From: Burkholderiales bacterium
Lineage (GTDB): Bacteria > Pseudomonadota > Gammaproteobacteria > Burkholderiales > Burkholderiaceae_C
Length of the DNA stretch: 32,011 nt
Direction: 5' to 3'
Assembly: GCA_006227825.1 (NCBI GenBank)
Contig: SBFS01000241.1
Span: 1 to 32,011 of the forward strand
Positions 4,925 through 30,595 of this stretch are shown one piece after another. Each line of letters opens with the position of its first letter. Within the stretch, counting starts at the first letter, position 1. The notes below the pieces were generated by a model. That model did not search any database and was not told where the DNA came from. It was given only the letters and a program-made list of their open reading frames with translations. A program made the translations under genes and the position numbers.

Positions 4925-5398
4925 TCAGATGGCCGCGGCACCGATGAAGCAGCTCAGGGCGGCCACCGCAGACAGGCGAAAGCGCAGCGTCAGCCAGCCG
5001 GTCAGGCCGGCGCGCCGGTAGAGCTTGCGGTCGACCGCGTAGCACAGCAGCAGCAGGAAGCCCAGCCAGGCCAGCCCGGCCGGGGCGGGCATCAGCAGGC
5101 CGGGCCAGGCCAGCAGCGAGGGCAGCACGCCCCACAGCAGGTGCATGCGCTGTGCGTGCGGCCCGCACGAAGCACCTTCCTGGCGGCCGGCCAGCCAGGC
5201 CAGGCCCCAGTGGATGCCACCCAGAAAGGAGGCGATCAGGGCACCGTAGCCGGCCAGGGCCATCGAGACCCAGCCGCGCAGGTCCGCCTCGACCAGCCAC
5301 AGCAGGACGGCCAGCAGCGCGAACGGGATCAGGCCGGCGTACCCCAGTGTGTGCGCCAGGGCACGGTCTTTCGGGTCGTCGAGCGGATCGCGGTTCAT
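4925..5398 (-). CDS. DUF3429 family membrane protein
   Basis: A 157-residue protein of about five hydrophobic segments: LIPFALLAVLLWLV, then MALAGYGALIASFLGG, LLWGVLPSLLAWPGLL, LAWLGFLLLLCYAVD and SAVAALSCFIGAAA. The stretch YGALIASFLGGIHWG is the signature I associate with DUF3429, an inner-membrane family of unknown function. The ATG overlaps the dsbC stop by four bases (ATGA), so the two are probably translated from one message. An in-frame extension far upstream lies in a shadow frame of dsbC and is rejected. No catalytic residues are evident. The function is not known. Confidence 0.82.
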   Translation of the reverse strand: MNRDPLDDPKDRALAHTLGYAGLIPFALLAVLLWLVEADLRGWVSMALAGYGALIASFLGGIHWGLAWLAGRQEGASCGPHAQRMHLLWGVLPSLLAWPGLLMPAPAGLAWLGFLLLLCYAVDRKLYRRAGLTGWLTLRFRLSAVAALSCFIGAAAI

Positions 5399-10407: not shown

Positions 10408-10436
10408 TTTGCCGATCGGTGAAAAAGAGCGGCAAA
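10408..10436 (+). repeat. Inverted repeat after the DUF2783 gene
   Basis: TTTGCCG (10408-10414) and CGGCAAA (10430-10436) form a perfect 7-bp stem with a 15-base loop, 26 bases after the DUF2783 stop. There is no T-run on the plus strand, so it is at best a weak terminator or a 3'-end stabiliser. Confidence 0.35.
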
Positions 10437-10442
10437 AACCCC

Positions 10443-10469
10443 TCAAGTCTGGCGATCGGCTGCCGAAAA
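10443..10469 (+). promoter_or_regulatory. FliA (sigma-28) promoter for the gene at 10523
   Basis: TCAAGTCT (10443-10450), an 11-base spacer, then GCCGAAAA (10462-10469). The enterobacterial consensus is TAAAGTTT-N11-GCCGATAA, so the -35 matches at 6 of 8, the -10 at 7 of 8 and the spacing is exact. The next start codon is at 10523, giving a leader of about 47 bases. Confidence 0.7.
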
Positions 10470-10522: not shown

Positions 10523-11182
10523 ATGATCAACATTCCAAGCACGACCGCAGTCAACTGGAGCACGCCACCGGCCAGCACGGCTGTCAGCCCGGTGCTGGCC
10601 GTACAGCCGGTGAGTGCCACCGGTCGGGAGCGCCAGGCGGGACTGGGCGCCGGCCAGGACGGGCCCGGGCAGCAGCGCCCGGGTGATGGCGGGCGCACGG
10701 CCCGGGCCGCGCGCGAAGAGGCATCCTCTGTCCCTCTGCTGCCGCGGGCTGAGCCGGCCGCCAGGGGTGACGCCGCCGAACCGGCACGCGATGCCGCTGC
10801 CCGCCAGGAGGCCGGGCAGCGGGCCAGCCGGGAGAGGGCCGACCAGGAGGCCGATGCGGCCATGAAGGACAGGCTGCAGACCGTGCTGACCTCCATCTGG
10901 CAGGCCAGTTCCGCGGTCGTCGAGCGGGCGCTGGGCAGCGAGCCTGCGGACACCGTGCCGGCTCAGCCGGCGCCAGGAGGCGCCCTGGCCGTCCGTCGCC
11001 CGCTGCCGCCGGCACCGCCCGAGCCCGCGAAGGCGCTGCCCTGGCCCGTCATGCCCGAGGACTCGCAGCCGTCTTCAGCCGCGCTACCGGTTCCACCCGA
11101 GGAGGTGGTGGCCTACGACGAAAAAGGCAACACCTCCACCGCGCCGCTGGAGGTGGGCGGCCTGGTCGACCGTCGCGTGTAG
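10523..11182 (+). CDS. Unrecognised protein, probable flagellar-regulon member
   Basis: A 219-residue protein I do not recognise. It starts MINIPSTTAVNWSTPPASTA and is low in complexity: residues 30-110 are rich in Ala, Arg, Gln and Gly, followed by a short helical stretch MKDRLQTVLTSIWQASSAVVERALG, a Pro/Ala-rich segment and a more ordered tail EEVVAYDEKGNTSTAPLEVG. There is no signal peptide, membrane segment or catalytic motif. The ATG follows a modest GGGGGTAG site; longer in-frame starts would lie inside the FliA-type promoter at 10443-10469. That promoter and the convergent chemotaxis operon suggest a late flagellar or chemotaxis role. An intrinsically disordered adaptor, or a protein secreted through the flagellum, would fit the composition, but this is inference. 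Confidence 0.65.
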   Translation: MINIPSTTAVNWSTPPASTAVSPVLAVQPVSATGRERQAGLGAGQDGPGQQRPGDGGRTARAAREEASSVPLLPRAEPAARGDAAEPARDAAARQEAGQRASRERADQEADAAMKDRLQTVLTSIWQASSAVVERALGSEPADTVPAQPAPGGALAVRRPLPPAPPEPAKALPWPVMPEDSQPSSAALPVPPEEVVAYDEKGNTSTAPLEVGGLVDRRV

Positions 11183-16604: not shown

Positions 16605-17048
16605 TCAGAACAGTTCGACGGAACCCGAGTCCATCTCGCTCTGGGTGACCGGGCTGGGGCGTTCGGGCATCGGGTCCAGCCGCAGCGGCTGTTCGTCCCC
16701 TTCGAGTTCCATGGCCTCCTCGGCCAGGCGCCACGCGCAGCCCTGCAGGATCAGGCTGGTGTGGTTGATCAGCTGGGTGGCCATGTCGTGGAACTGGAGC
16801 TCCGTGACCGCCTGCTGGAGCTGGTTGCGGATGACGTGCAGGTCCTCGTTGTCCCGGCCGGCCAGATGTGCCAGGGCGCTTTCGGCGTTGCCAAAGCGCT
16901 CCAGCAGATTGCTGGTGGCGTGGTCCAGCAGACCGACCAGGCGTTGCAGGTCCGTCAATGCCATGAGCAGCGAGTCCTGGACGTCCGCGACCATGTTCAC
17001 GGGCAGGGAGACGGCCGGAGCCGTCTGCAGCGTCGATGCTTGTTCCAT
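16605..17048 (-). CDS. Short CheZ-like chemotaxis protein
   Basis: A 147-residue, mostly helical protein directly ahead of cheY. Residues 83-95, ELQFHDMATQLIN, align with the CheZ active-site helix DFQDLTGQVIK: F-x-D-x-x-x-Q spacing is kept, with D88 and Q92 at the positions of the catalytic Asp143 and Gln147 of E. coli CheZ. The chain ends SEMDSGSVELF, in the place where CheZ carries its CheY-binding tail DDLLDSLGF. It is much shorter than CheZ (about 214). A role as CheY-phosphate phosphatase is my inference from these residues and from location. I start at MEQASTLQ (17048) because the longer frame begins within 3 bases of the FliA -10 box at 17119-17126. No clear ribosome site. Confidence 0.75.
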   Translation of the reverse strand: MEQASTLQTAPAVSLPVNMVADVQDSLLMALTDLQRLVGLLDHATSNLLERFGNAESALAHLAGRDNEDLHVIRNQLQQAVTELQFHDMATQLINHTSLILQGCAWRLAEEAMELEGDEQPLRLDPMPERPSPVTQSEMDSGSVELF

Positions 17049-17118: not shown

Positions 17119-17145
17119 TTATCGGCCAATTACCGGGCAAATTCA
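17119..17145 (-). promoter_or_regulatory. FliA (sigma-28) promoter for the chemotaxis operon
   Basis: On the minus strand: TGAATTTG (17145-17138), an 11-base spacer, then GCCGATAA (17126-17119). The -10 is identical to the FliA consensus and the -35 matches 5 of 8. It reads into the CheZ-like gene (ATG at 17048), so the cheZ-like/cheY/cheA/cheR/cheD/cheB run is a late flagellar operon. An A-run upstream (17151-17157 on the minus strand) could act as an UP element. Confidence 0.8.
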
Positions 17146-23679: not shown

Positions 23680-23736
23680 ATTATTGGGCGCGGGCCCCGG
23701 CGCCATTCGGCCGAAAAGGGCCCGAAAAGCCGCCTT
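23680..23736 (-). promoter_or_regulatory. fliL promoter with shared activator box
   Basis: On the minus strand: half-site CGGTAAAGG (inner AAGG at 23736-23733), 13 bases, inverted half-site CCTTTTCGG (CCTTTT at 23719-23714), 27 bases after CCTTTTC, then a -10 of AATAAT (23685-23680). There is no TTGACA-like -35, as expected for an activator-dependent promoter. The arrangement is the same, base for base in spacing, as upstream of fliF. I propose an FlhDC-type site, centred about 50 bases before the start of transcription. It begins just after the fliK stop. Confidence 0.65.
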
Positions 23737-23744
23737 TACCGCGT

Positions 23745-25067
23745 TCAGACAAACAGGTCCAGCGACGACCTGCCGTTGCCTGCCGAGGACTTGCCCGTGG
23801 GCTGTGTTTCGGGGGACGCGTCGCCCTGCGCGGCTGTGCGTCCGCCGCGGTGCGCCGTGGGCACCGGTGTCGAGGGGTTTGCGGAGGGGCGGTCACCCGT
23901 GGCCTGGCCACCTACCGAAACCTCCCCGAGCTGCATGCCGCTGCGCTGCAGCCATTCGGACAGTGTCTGGCCGGCCTGCGACTGGAGCGTGCTGCGGGCC
24001 TCTGCATGATCGGTCCTGAAGTCCACGCTCACTTCCTGTCCGCGCAGGCTGATGTCGATGTCGATGGCTTCGGCGCTGCCCTGGTCCAGCTTCAGGCTGG
24101 CCTGGCGCAGCCCCGTGGCGGTCCAGCCCCGCAAGTCCTGGTCCTCAAGGCCGCCGGCCCTGTCCAGGTCGAACGGTGTCTCCGGTGCATCCGCTGCAGC
24201 CTCGGTGACGCCGCCGTCGGTGCCGGCCGCCAGGCCGGAGCCGTCGCCGTTCCCGCTTCCGGCACCGCCGTGACCGGACGAGAGTTGACCGGTGCCGGCT
24301 GCGGCAGCGACGCCAGTGGCCGGACCTGTGCCGCCTGCCGGCGCGCCTTCTGCCTGTGCCGCCAGCGCCCGGTCGGCCCCCCGGGCCAGGGCGAAGCGCT
24401 GGTCCAGCGCGACCGTGCTGCGGGCGGCGGCGGTGTTCAGTGGTGTGCCGGCAGCGGCATCGGCGACGGAGCGCGTGGGACCGGCTGTGCGCCAGGCCAC
24501 GCTGTCCCCCTTCTGCAGCATGAGTGCCGTGGGCCTGCCCGGGGCGTGTGACAGCGCCGCCGCCGGACGGGTCCGGGAACCTGCGCCCTGGGCGGCCGCG
24601 GCGTTCGTGGCGGTCGCCTCCTGCGGCACAGCTGCTTCGCCCGGGTCGGCCTGCTTCGTGTTCTCGCCGGCCTGGAGTGTCTCGGTGCGAACCGGCCCGG
24701 TCGCCGCATCGGCGCGCAGGGCAGGTCCGGCGCCGGTCTGCTGTTGATGTTCGAACCGGGTCGGCATGTCTGGGCCGTCTGCGCCGGCCGCTGCGATGGA
24801 CGGGTCCGCGGCCGCCGGCATGGTGTCGGCCTGCACGAGCCCCGGCATGGCCGGTGGTGTTTCGTCGCCCGCGCTGGCGGGCGCCGGCCCGATGTCGCCG
24901 GGCGCAGGGCCGGTCCGGGTGTCTGCGAGCAGGCCCAGCAGGTTGGCGAACAGGTCGGAGGGTCCGTCGGCCTCGGACTGCGGGCGCCGCGCCGTGGCGT
25001 GCTGGCGTCCCTGGGCGGCCTGCGTCGGGGTGCTGGATGAGGATGCGGCGCTGGCCGTGGTGCTCAT
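23745..25067 (-). CDS. fliK: Flagellar hook-length control protein FliK
   Basis: A 440-residue protein. The N-terminal 280 residues are Ala/Gly/Thr/Pro-rich and poorly ordered, as is usual for the ruler part of FliK. The conserved C-terminal domain follows: LKLDQGSAEAIDIDISLRG, VSVDFRTDHAEARSTLQSQ and LSEWLQRSGMQLGEVSV (near residues 310-390), matching the Flg_hook domain (L..LRLDP..LG.v.v). FliK is exported during hook growth and switches FlhB from hook to filament substrates. The chain ends SSLDLFV. The start overlaps the fliJ stop (ATGA). Long antisense frames across it reflect GC bias and are not genes. Confidence 0.9.
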   Translation of the reverse strand: MSTTASAASSSSTPTQAAQGRQHATARRPQSEADGPSDLFANLLGLLADTRTGPAPGDIGPAPASAGDETPPAMPGLVQADTMPAAADPSIAAAGADGPDMPTRFEHQQQTGAGPALRADAATGPVRTETLQAGENTKQADPGEAAVPQEATATNAAAAQGAGSRTRPAAALSHAPGRPTALMLQKGDSVAWRTAGPTRSVADAAAGTPLNTAAARSTVALDQRFALARGADRALAAQAEGAPAGGTGPATGVAAAAGTGQLSSGHGGAGSGNGDGSGLAAGTDGGVTEAAADAPETPFDLDRAGGLEDQDLRGWTATGLRQASLKLDQGSAEAIDIDISLRGQEVSVDFRTDHAEARSTLQSQAGQTLSEWLQRSGMQLGEVSVGGQATGDRPSANPSTPVPTAHRGGRTAAQGDASPETQPTGKSSAGNGRSSLDLFV

Positions 25068-28735: not shown

Positions 28736-30409
28736 TCAGGCCGGTGCCTCGCCGTTGACCCAGCTCTTGACGATGTTGGCCACCGCAGCCGGGTTGTCCA
28801 GCGCCAGGCGGCGCGCTTCGGTCAGGCGGTGCTGATCCGGGTCGTCACGTGTCTGCTCGGTCGGCATGGGCAGGCCGGGTCGCTCGGGCGTGTCGTTGAG
28901 CAGCGCGTCGAGCTGGGCCGCAGGCGCAGGCAGGGCCGGCGGCGACCGCATCGCCTTGATGGCGGGCCGCACCAGTCCCATCAGGACCAGCAGGCCCATG
29001 GCCAGCAGGCCTGCCGGCCACGCCAGGCGGGTTGCCAGGTCTTGCACACGGGCATCCTGCCACCACACCACCGGTTCGGCGGCTGGCGCCTCGACCGCGG
29101 AGAAAGCGGCGTTGACCAGGTTCACCGAATCGCCGCGCTCGCGGTCGAAGCCGATGGTCTCGCGCACCAGCGCGGTCATCTGCTCGAGCTGTTCCGGCGG
29201 GATCGGTGCGGTGGTCTCGCGGCCGCTGCGATCGGTGCGCGTCACATGGTTGATGACCACGGCCGCGTTCAGTCGCCTGACCGTGCCGGTGGCCTCGCGC
29301 ACGACCTTGACCGTGCGGTCGACCTCGTAGTTGATGACCGACTCGCGGCGCGTGTTGCCCGTGCGGTCGGCAGCGCCGGCCGCTGCCAGGGCCGCCGCGT
29401 CGCCGTTGATCGGCGCGCCCGCGGCTCCCGGCGGCTGGTTGGTGAGGGCGCCCGGCACGCCGGCCGGCAGGGCGCTGCCGCCGCTGCTGTCCTCGACGAC
29501 CTGCTGGCTGCGCACCGTGCCCGGTTCACCGCCCTGGTTGGGCCGGTGCTGCTCCGAGGTGGACTCCACGGTCGAGAAGTCGACCTGGGCCGTCACCTGC
29601 GCCTTGACATTGCCCCGGCCCACCAGCGGCTCGAGGATTTCCAGGATGCGCCGGGTGTGCAGCTGCTCGATCTGCTGCACGTACTGCAGCTTCTGCAGGT
29701 CGGCGCCCTGCGAATGGCCGTCCGGCGTGCCCGAGAGCAGATTGCCGGCGTCGTCGATCACGCTGACCGCCTTCGGGTTCATCTCCGGGACGCTGGAGGC
29801 CACCAGGTGCACGATGCCGGCGATCTGGGCCTTGTCCAGGGTGCGCCCCGGGAAGAGGGAGACCAGCACCGAGGCCGAGGGCTTCTGCTGCTCGCGGAAA
29901 AAGCCGTTCTGGTTGGGCAGCGCCAGGTGCACGCGTGCGCTCTGCACCGACGACAGGGACTGGATGGAGCGGGTGAGCTCGCCCTCCAGGCCGCGCTGGA
30001 AGGTCAGCCGCTCCTGGAACTGGGTCATGCCGAAGCGGTTGGACTCCATCAGCTCGAAGCCCGTCACCGAGCCGCGCGGCAGGCCCTGCGAGGCCAGGCG
30101 CAGGCGGGTGTCGTGCACCTTGTCGGCCGGAACGAGGATGGCCTGCCCCCCGTCGGTGTACTGGTAGGGCACGTTCATCTGGGACAGCTGGGCCACGATG
30201 GCACCGCCGTCGCGGTCGCTCAGGTTGGCATACAGGACCCGCCAGTCGGACTGGCGTCCCATGAAGAACAGGGCCAGCACCAGCGCCAGCAGGGCCAGCA
30301 CACCCAGCCCCAGCTTGATCTTCTGGGAGGCATCGAGGCGGGAAATACCTTCGGCCAGCGGGTTGCTGCGCGCGGGCTTGAGGTCCATTTCGGCAACGGT
30401 GGTGCTCAT
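28736..30409 (-). CDS. fliF: Flagellar MS-ring protein FliF
   Basis: A 557-residue double-pass membrane protein. TM1 is LGLGVLALLALVLALFFM (about 33-50) and TM2 is AGLLAMGLLVLMGLV (near 455-470). Between them are the ring-building motifs: LYANLSDRDGGAIVAQL, PRGSVTGFELMESNRFGMTQFQE, LPNQNGFFREQQKPSASV and HLVASSVPEMNPKAVSVID. The C-terminal tail binds FliG. A Gly/Ala/Pro-rich loop around 320-355 is variable in the family. FliF nucleates basal-body assembly, and it heads the fliFGHIJK operon. The promoter carries the shared box that also serves fliE in the other direction. Confidence 0.97.
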   Translation of the reverse strand: MSTTVAEMDLKPARSNPLAEGISRLDASQKIKLGLGVLALLALVLALFFMGRQSDWRVLYANLSDRDGGAIVAQLSQMNVPYQYTDGGQAILVPADKVHDTRLRLASQGLPRGSVTGFELMESNRFGMTQFQERLTFQRGLEGELTRSIQSLSSVQSARVHLALPNQNGFFREQQKPSASVLVSLFPGRTLDKAQIAGIVHLVASSVPEMNPKAVSVIDDAGNLLSGTPDGHSQGADLQKLQYVQQIEQLHTRRILEILEPLVGRGNVKAQVTAQVDFSTVESTSEQHRPNQGGEPGTVRSQQVVEDSSGGSALPAGVPGALTNQPPGAAGAPINGDAAALAAAGAADRTGNTRRESVINYEVDRTVKVVREATGTVRRLNAAVVINHVTRTDRSGRETTAPIPPEQLEQMTALVRETIGFDRERGDSVNLVNAAFSAVEAPAAEPVVWWQDARVQDLATRLAWPAGLLAMGLLVLMGLVRPAIKAMRSPPALPAPAAQLDALLNDTPERPGLPMPTEQTRDDPDQHRLTEARRLALDNPAAVANIVKSWVNGEAPA

Positions 30410-30468
30410 GGCGGAAGAGGTGGGTCGGCAATCGGATCGGGGAAGGGCGGATGCCCCTGTTGCGATCG

Positions 30469-30474
30469 ATTATT
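30469..30474 (-). promoter_or_regulatory. -10 box for fliF
   Basis: AATAAT on the minus strand, identical to the -10 upstream of fliL and at the same distance (27 bases) from the CCTTTTC of the activator box. The leader to the fliF ATG at 30409 would be about 53 bases. The TTGACA-like -35 is missing. Confidence 0.6.
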
Positions 30475-30502
30475 CGGCCCGCACCACCGCCGCATAGCCG
30501 GG

Positions 30503-30525
30503 AAAAGGCCGCGCTTTGGGCCCTT
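30503..30525. promoter_or_regulatory. Bidirectional activator box between fliE and fliF
   Basis: Plus strand: AAAAGG (30503-30508), 13 bases, CCTT (30522-30525); extended half-sites are GGGAAAAGG and, from the other strand, GGAATAAGG. The core is symmetric, so it presents the same element to both genes. Downstream of it on either side at 27 bases lie AATAAT for fliF and TAGCAT for fliE. The fliL promoter has the same N13 and N27 spacings. An FlhDC-type early-gene activator is the likely ligand, inferred from architecture and target genes. Confidence 0.7.
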
Positions 30526-30555
30526 ATTCCCGCTGCGCACCCGGCCTCATCGCCC

Positions 30556-30561
30556 TAGCAT
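30556..30561 (+). promoter_or_regulatory. -10 box for fliE
   Basis: TAGCAT (4 of 6 to TATAAT) starts 27 bases after CCTTATT of the shared box, counted as for fliF and fliL. Transcription would begin near 30568 and the fliE ATG is at 30596, preceded by a GGAAGGAA ribosome site. The position was predicted from the fliF and fliL spacing before looking. Confidence 0.5.
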
Positions 30562-30595
30562 CGCTTCCATCTGCCTTGCGTGGAAGGAACACCCC

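Follow-up and report, generated by a model that had tools for sequence, protein, structure and literature searches.

The fliF/fliE spacer and its promoter signals

The window, which is the whole stretch of DNA analysed here (32,011 nucleotides), contains two divergent flagellar genes, fliF and fliE, separated by a spacer of 186 bases (30410-30595). Downstream of fliF, fliG, fliH, fliI and fliJ were identified by NCBIfam models and fliK by Pfam PF02120. The genes and the elements located between them are as follows:

28736-30409, minus strand: fliF (NCBIfam TIGR00206, E 2.8e-109), heading the fliF-fliK run
30469-30474, minus strand: predicted -10 of fliF, AATAAT, 28 bp from A30503
30493-30497, no strand assigned: outer conserved block CATAG, flanking the box towards fliF
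30502-30508: fliF-side arm of the box, GAAAAGG
30503-30528, no strand assigned: predicted FlhDC box, 26-bp core A1-T26 (E. coli consensus ANNA-N18-TNWT)
30515-30517, no strand assigned: central TTT of the box, at the dyad centre and within the N18 of the published consensus
30522-30529: fliE-side arm of the box, CCTTATTC
30556-30561, plus strand: predicted -10 of fliE, TAGCAT, 27 bp from T30528
30596-30916, plus strand: fliE (NCBIfam TIGR00205, E 3.7e-24)

A first-pass annotation of this DNA had proposed that a symmetric inverted repeat between fliF and fliE is bound by FlhDC and drives both genes. The NCBIfam names agree with it on the two genes, and the repeat lies where it had been placed, at 30503-30525, as AAAAGG (30503-30508), 13 bases and CCTT (30522-30525). 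When the pattern was searched with at most one mismatch, the 32-kb window gave 4 matches against 0.36 expected, and none of 100 shuffles reached 4, indicating that the repeat is beyond chance. These four matches are two places read on both strands, namely the fliF/fliE spacer and 23714-23738, upstream of fliL.

Both -10-like hexamers that had been named are present on their respective strands. The two -10s are preceded, 17 bases upstream, by the hexamers CTATGC and CTGCGC, both poor -35s, and a scan of the spacer found no sigma-70 -35/-10 pair on either strand, in line with the earlier statement that a usable -35 is lacking. Each side of the spacer therefore carries a predicted -10 of the sigma-70 type but no good -35, as is typical of class II promoters. 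The annotation had also put the two -10s at an equal distance of 27 bases from the box. This is true with 30502 and 30528 taken as the ends of the arms; counted from the edges of the repeat as annotated, the distances are 28 and 30. Measured from A1 (30503) and T26 (30528), they are 28 on the fliF side and 27 on the fliE side.

We considered whether these promoters are read by a sigma-28 or sigma-54 holoenzyme instead of sigma-70 with FlhDC. The sigma-28 (FliA) class III consensus is TAAA-N15-GCCGATAA, and that of sigma-54 is TGGCAC-N5-TTGCW. On the fliF side, GCCGAATAAT does resemble the sigma-28 -10, GCCGATAA. Against this, no sigma-28 match in the spacer has fewer than 4 mismatches, with 133 of 200 shuffles equal or better, and the best sigma-54 match has 3 mismatches, with 78 of 200 shuffles equal or better. 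We rejected both promoter readings of the spacer and regard control by either holoenzyme as extremely unlikely.

Conservation of the box and of its spacing

Named genomes supplied the FliF relatives, of which 80 of 294 were kept; Hydrogenophaga and Rhodoferax make up most of their titles, and Curvibacter and Acidovorax are among the rest. A fliE match is divergent to fliF in 79 of these 80, some of them truncated at contig ends; the remaining one (L030) was dropped because it lies too near a contig end and its stretch lacks fliE. At 445 bases, the spacer of another relative, L062, was too long for the alignment, which thus comprised 79 spacers (the window and 78 relatives). This longer spacer holds two boxes; the fliF hexamer gives its best score with one of them and the fliE hexamer with the other, which looks as though a duplication had split the shared switch.

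Three elements and the spacing between them are nearly fixed in the 79 spacers, which bears out the expectation that the box is conserved in relatives. Invariant in all 79 are 30469, 30471 and 30473 in the fliF hexamer, A30503, A30506 and T30528 in the box, and T30556, A30557 and T30561 in the fliE hexamer, where A30560 is kept in 76. We compared the box with the E. coli FlhDC consensus, ANNA-N18-TNWT-N6-WT, as given in PMC12888815. With A1 set at 30503, A1, A4, W25 (30527) and T26 were each found in 79 of 79 spacers and T23 (T30525) in 47, and the window itself carries all five of these core positions. The tail of the consensus was not kept in the alignment (W33 and T34 occur in 28 and 23 of 79 spacers, respectively). 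This is not decisive, because the known E. coli motif is itself degenerate and, according to the available text of PMC4183435, present in 7 of 11 bound sites.

These positions also changed the picture of the box. The half-site SSRWAAAGG, which had been proposed for scanning relatives, does not describe the conserved core; closer is an A, two mostly A/T positions, an A, and then WT 20 bases on. Nor is the box symmetric as had been claimed: it is oriented, scoring far better one way round, and the repeat belongs to a larger unit, the 26-bp box with its central TTT and outer bases such as C30493. In the outer block, C, A and T at 30493-30495 are kept in 77, 61 and 64 of 79 spacers. The three central positions are T in 73, 72 and 68 of 79 spacers, and in 26, 28 and 28 of the 36 spacers from other families described below. 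We found no description of a central element of the FlhDC box in the largely open-access literature searched.

The stretch between the fliF hexamer and A1 (30475-30502 in the window) is 28 bp long in 41 of the 79 spacers and 27 bp in 38, the box is 26 bp long in 78 and 27 bp in one, and between the box and the fliE hexamer (30529-30555 in the window) there are 27 bp in 52 spacers and 28 bp in the other 27. Both hexamers therefore stand 27 or 28 bp from one box in every spacer, as a bidirectional promoter with a shared site demands. The commonest base accounts on average for 93% at the fliF hexamer and 89% at the fliE hexamer, and for 58% and 47% across the 28 positions on the fliF side and the 27 positions on the fliE side that lie between hexamers and box. 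Positions at or below 50% number 13 of 28 on the fliF side and 19 of 27 on the fliE side. With its mean of 58%, the fliF-side stretch is thus partly conserved too, around C30493.

The inverted repeat could instead be an RNA hairpin or a terminator whose likeness to an operator is accidental. By eye, the arms could pair, AAAAGGCC with GGCCCTTATT. The repeat, however, lies upstream of both starts, and what is conserved are its A/T bases and the distances to the hexamers. A terminator scan of the spacer found no terminator-like site, and we discarded the terminator reading; the chance that the repeat acts as a hairpin or terminator appears negligible.

A matrix of 46 columns was built from the 78 relatives, leaving the window out. 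On this matrix the site scored 46.8, followed by a place upstream of fliL with 17.4 and the next match in the window with 10.3, whereas the best of 20 Markov shuffles reached 8.6.

Occurrence in other families of the order

In 250 genomes drawn from the order, FlhC was found in 88 and fliE in 167. Among the matches listed, we chose by hand 60 FlhC-positive genomes (E 5.1e-60 or better) and 40 FlhC-negative genomes, all 100 from families other than that of the window, and examined the sequence upstream of fliE in each. Divergent fliF, searched for with two FliF queries in tblastn and so possibly missed in some genomes, was found in 44 of the 60 FlhC-positive genomes versus 1 of the 40 FlhC-negative ones. 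With gaps of 25-30 allowed and 200 shuffles for each spacer, 36 of the 44 FlhC-positive divergent spacers passed at p ≤ 0.01 and 8 failed; the 36 span 16 family labels by hand count. Among those that passed, both gaps are 27 or 28 in 28 spacers, TA---T is present on the fliE side in 33 and absent in 3, and the strict A(T/G)TAT is present on the fliF side in 28 and absent in 8.

The strict whole pattern was detected in 27 of the 44 FlhC-positive genomes with divergent fliF, versus 1 of the 16 FlhC-positive genomes without it, where it lies far from fliE. None of the 39 FlhC-negative genomes without divergent fliF carries it, and it is present in the sole FlhC-negative genome with divergent fliF, G024. 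In this exception the layout lies in L210 (contig C5; also L233), and no FlhC or FlhD match was found when the genome was searched. In two genomes of the same genus flhDC adjoins motA, and in G024 the motA frame is broken about 100 bases short of the contig C5 end; its flhDC may have been truly lost or may lie on the far side of a junction missing from the assembly.

A one-sided box by fliE was also sought in the genomes without divergent fliF. At p 0.01 it was found in 1 of the 16 FlhC-positive and 3 of the 39 FlhC-negative genomes, with two more FlhC-negative ones at 0.02. This one-sided test does not discriminate, indicating that FlhC does not always act on fliE in this way. Since 15 of the 16 FlhC-positive genomes lack the one-sided box at p 0.01, other control of fliE is likely there. 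The 16 loci are L128, L135-L137, L140-L142, L144, L147, L148, L150, L158, L160, L161, L167 and L168.

FlhD, FlhC and further boxes in the same genome

The genome encodes flhD and flhC as neighbours on contig C166 (FlhC, E 1.9e-82; FlhD, E 4.0e-38). A second, partial FlhD-like match at a contig start (G000:C8:1-102, L084; E 2.5e-11) may represent another flhD gene or a duplication introduced by the assembly.

The box recurs at other class II operons of this genome, namely at flgB/flgA, fliL, flhB and motA. The second box within the window is:

23704-23749, plus strand: box upstream of fliL, with A1 at 23714, matrix score 17.4, and AATAAT on the minus strand at 23680-23685 after a gap of 28

The fliL gene itself was assigned by NCBIfam with an E of 1.5e-34, under the cut-off of the model. 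On the contigs around flgB and flhB, the matrix scored 22.0 between flgB and flgA, 10.3 upstream of flhB, and 19.1 between flhC and motA. The last of these lies on the minus strand of contig C166 of the genome (G000), in the region 5061-5130 of L095, with the matrix match at 5085-5130 (the same as 1385-1430 of L001). By the matrix scan, the 5-kb stretch of fliA (contig C134) has no box except the one between flgB and flgA.

Two matrix matches in the window, at 10413 (10.3) and 17119 (6.9), fall on sigma-28-like sequences and were not counted as FlhDC boxes. One of these sequences is a sigma-28-like promoter on the plus strand at 10443-10469, TCAAG-N14-GCCGAAAA, upstream of a frame starting at 10523 without a Pfam match. 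The other, on the minus strand at 17119-17145, reads TGAA-N15-GCCGATAA and lies upstream of a frame (ATG at 17048, minus strand) that also has no Pfam match.

We applied a composite scan for both hexamers and the box, with 500 shuffles and hence a p floor of 0.002. The left hexamer was found 28 bp from the box at flgB, fliL and flhB (p 0.002 each), and the right hexamer of flgA likewise at 28 bp (p 0.002). At motA, TAGAGT stands 28 bp from the T26 position of its box. The right-hand block at fliL and flhB is not a -10, and there only the left side of the box faces a gene. Five boxes would thus serve seven genes, with fliF, flgB, fliL and flhB on the A-rich side and fliE, flgA and motA on the other.

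The match between flhC and motA was also considered as a terminator and this reading was rejected: the terminator scan found none there, the next gene is motA, and TAGAGT is 28 bp away. From its sequence, the site reads as one more FlhDC box. By eye, its arms form a near-perfect hairpin, and it might also serve to terminate flhDC, although the terminator scan calls none.

The box centre differs elsewhere in the genome, reading GAAAAG at fliL and GGCAAC at flhB and being G/C-rich at motA. A T-rich centre is thus not universal, and may be a feature of two-way boxes or of the lineage.

We weighed the alternative that the spacer site serves mainly one gene, with the other transcribed from elsewhere, or that two one-sided sites overlap. 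An oriented box fits this alternative: the composite score of the flgB/flgA box of this genome is 25.0, compared with 2.4 when reversed, and that of the E. coli fliF/fliE spacer is 11.5 (gaps of 27 and 27; p 0.002, the floor of the test), compared with -14.2 when reversed (p 0.45). The boxes at fliL and flhB, which face a gene on their left side only, point the same way, as do the two boxes of L062, of which the fliF-side scan prefers one and the fliE-side scan the other. What argues against it is that both hexamers keep 27 or 28 bp from a single box in all 79 spacers, and 27 bp in E. coli, and that the fliE hexamer is conserved nearly as well as the fliF hexamer (89% versus 93%). We consider service to one gene, or a pair of overlapping sites, quite improbable.

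A proposed two-way switch

The sequence of the box, its conservation, its spacing, the presence of flhDC and its recurrence at other class II promoters are the basis of the switch proposed here; binding by FlhDC, the two start points and activation in both directions are what we infer from them. It is highly likely that the spacer acts as a class II flagellar promoter in both directions, in which one FlhD4C2 on the 26-bp box would activate both fliF and fliE. The site is very probably a docking site from which FlhDC would turn on both genes. The register, the presence of flhDC, the conservation and the E. coli counterpart all favour the earlier suggestion of one FlhDC-bound site between two weak promoters.

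In the proposed mechanism, one FlhD4C2 would bind the oriented box at 30503-30528. Transcription would be expected to start near 30462 for fliF and near 30568 for fliE, 6-8 bases past the hexamers. With these predicted start points, the box would cover each promoter from about -41 to -66, and FlhDC would stand where the -35 is absent, just upstream of the position at which region 4 of sigma in each polymerase would contact it. FlhDC would thereby recruit sigma-70 RNA polymerase to AATAAT for fliF and to TAGCAT for fliE, and fliE would be coupled to the fliF operon through the shared site. For activation by FlhDC, contacts with the C-terminal domain of the polymerase alpha subunit are described as important in the available text of PMC4183435.

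A more detailed reading is tentative and, in our judgement, rather unlikely. Here the box would be an oriented unit of three parts: towards fliF an A-rich arm, in the middle the T-rich triplet, which could act through indirect readout or bending, and towards fliE a WT arm. Given the rigid 27/28-bp register to both -10s that beta- and gammaproteobacteria share, one FlhD4C2 could hold two polymerases simultaneously in a fixed geometry, and the orientation of the box could determine the proportion of fliE to the fliF operon. This reading is weakened by the different orientation of flgA/flgB in E. coli and by the lack of a T-rich centre in the motA box.

The comparison of genomes supports the E. 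coli-type two-way FlhDC switch as an old and rigid arrangement in Burkholderiales, and it yields a usable model of the FlhDC box for this order. The orientation and the T-rich centre are two testable details outside the quoted E. coli consensus.

Comparison with E. coli and other known systems

The spacer resembles that of E. coli fliE/fliF, in which the orthologous genes are also divergent and share one box, with AATAAT facing fliF and TAGGCT facing fliE at 27 bp each. The fliF-side arm differs, reading AATAAAC in E. coli and GAAAAGG in this genome. When our matrix was run over the 1 kb of E. coli K-12 that surrounds fliE/fliF, its best match fell inside the spacer with a score of 16.3. The available text of PMC4183435 reports one FlhDC ChIP-seq peak between fliE and fliF in E. 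coli and lower expression of both genes in flhD and flhC mutants. The centre of the E. coli box found here is at about 2013091 in NC_000913.3, and the centre of the ChIP peak is given as 2011110. A shift of 1,977 bases between record versions, which we assume, would put the centre of the box within about 5 bases of that of the peak. A gSELEX peak of FlhDC in the same spacer is described in the accessible part of PMC9962212, which prints a different FlhDC box, near the fliF start, and so disagrees with the box given here.

A second likeness is to the E. coli flgAMN/flgBCDEFGHIJ spacer, where, as far as the available portion of PMC12781870 goes, two divergent sigma-70 promoters are both activated in vitro from a single FlhD4C2 site. 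The spacer analysed here likewise has two opposed sigma-70 promoters and one FlhD4C2 site, all predicted. The E. coli spacer differs in its genes and in that, according to the same portion of PMC12781870, it also carries a MarA site and sigma-28 promoters that overlap. The best matrix match in the 1 kb of E. coli K-12 surrounding flgA/flgB lay in the spacer (14.2). In the composite scan, placing flgA on the A-rich side gave a score of 4.2 (p 0.004), compared with -4.7 when reversed (p 0.036). In this genome it is flgB that stands on the A-rich side, which indicates that the orientation is not conserved at flgA/flgB and weakens a general role for it.

Acidovorax delafieldii is, we presume, a related bacterium. 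The available text of a paper on its strain LR140 reports FlhDC motifs upstream of fliE and of fliF; within that text these are motifs predicted gene by gene, with neither a footprint nor a description of one box with two hexamers. The FlhDC set given there includes fliA, whereas no fliA box was found in this genome.

The kind of switch proposed here is thus already known, and its E. coli ortholog has already been mapped. What this analysis adds is the orientation of the box, its usually T-rich centre, and a geometry common to beta- and gammaproteobacteria.
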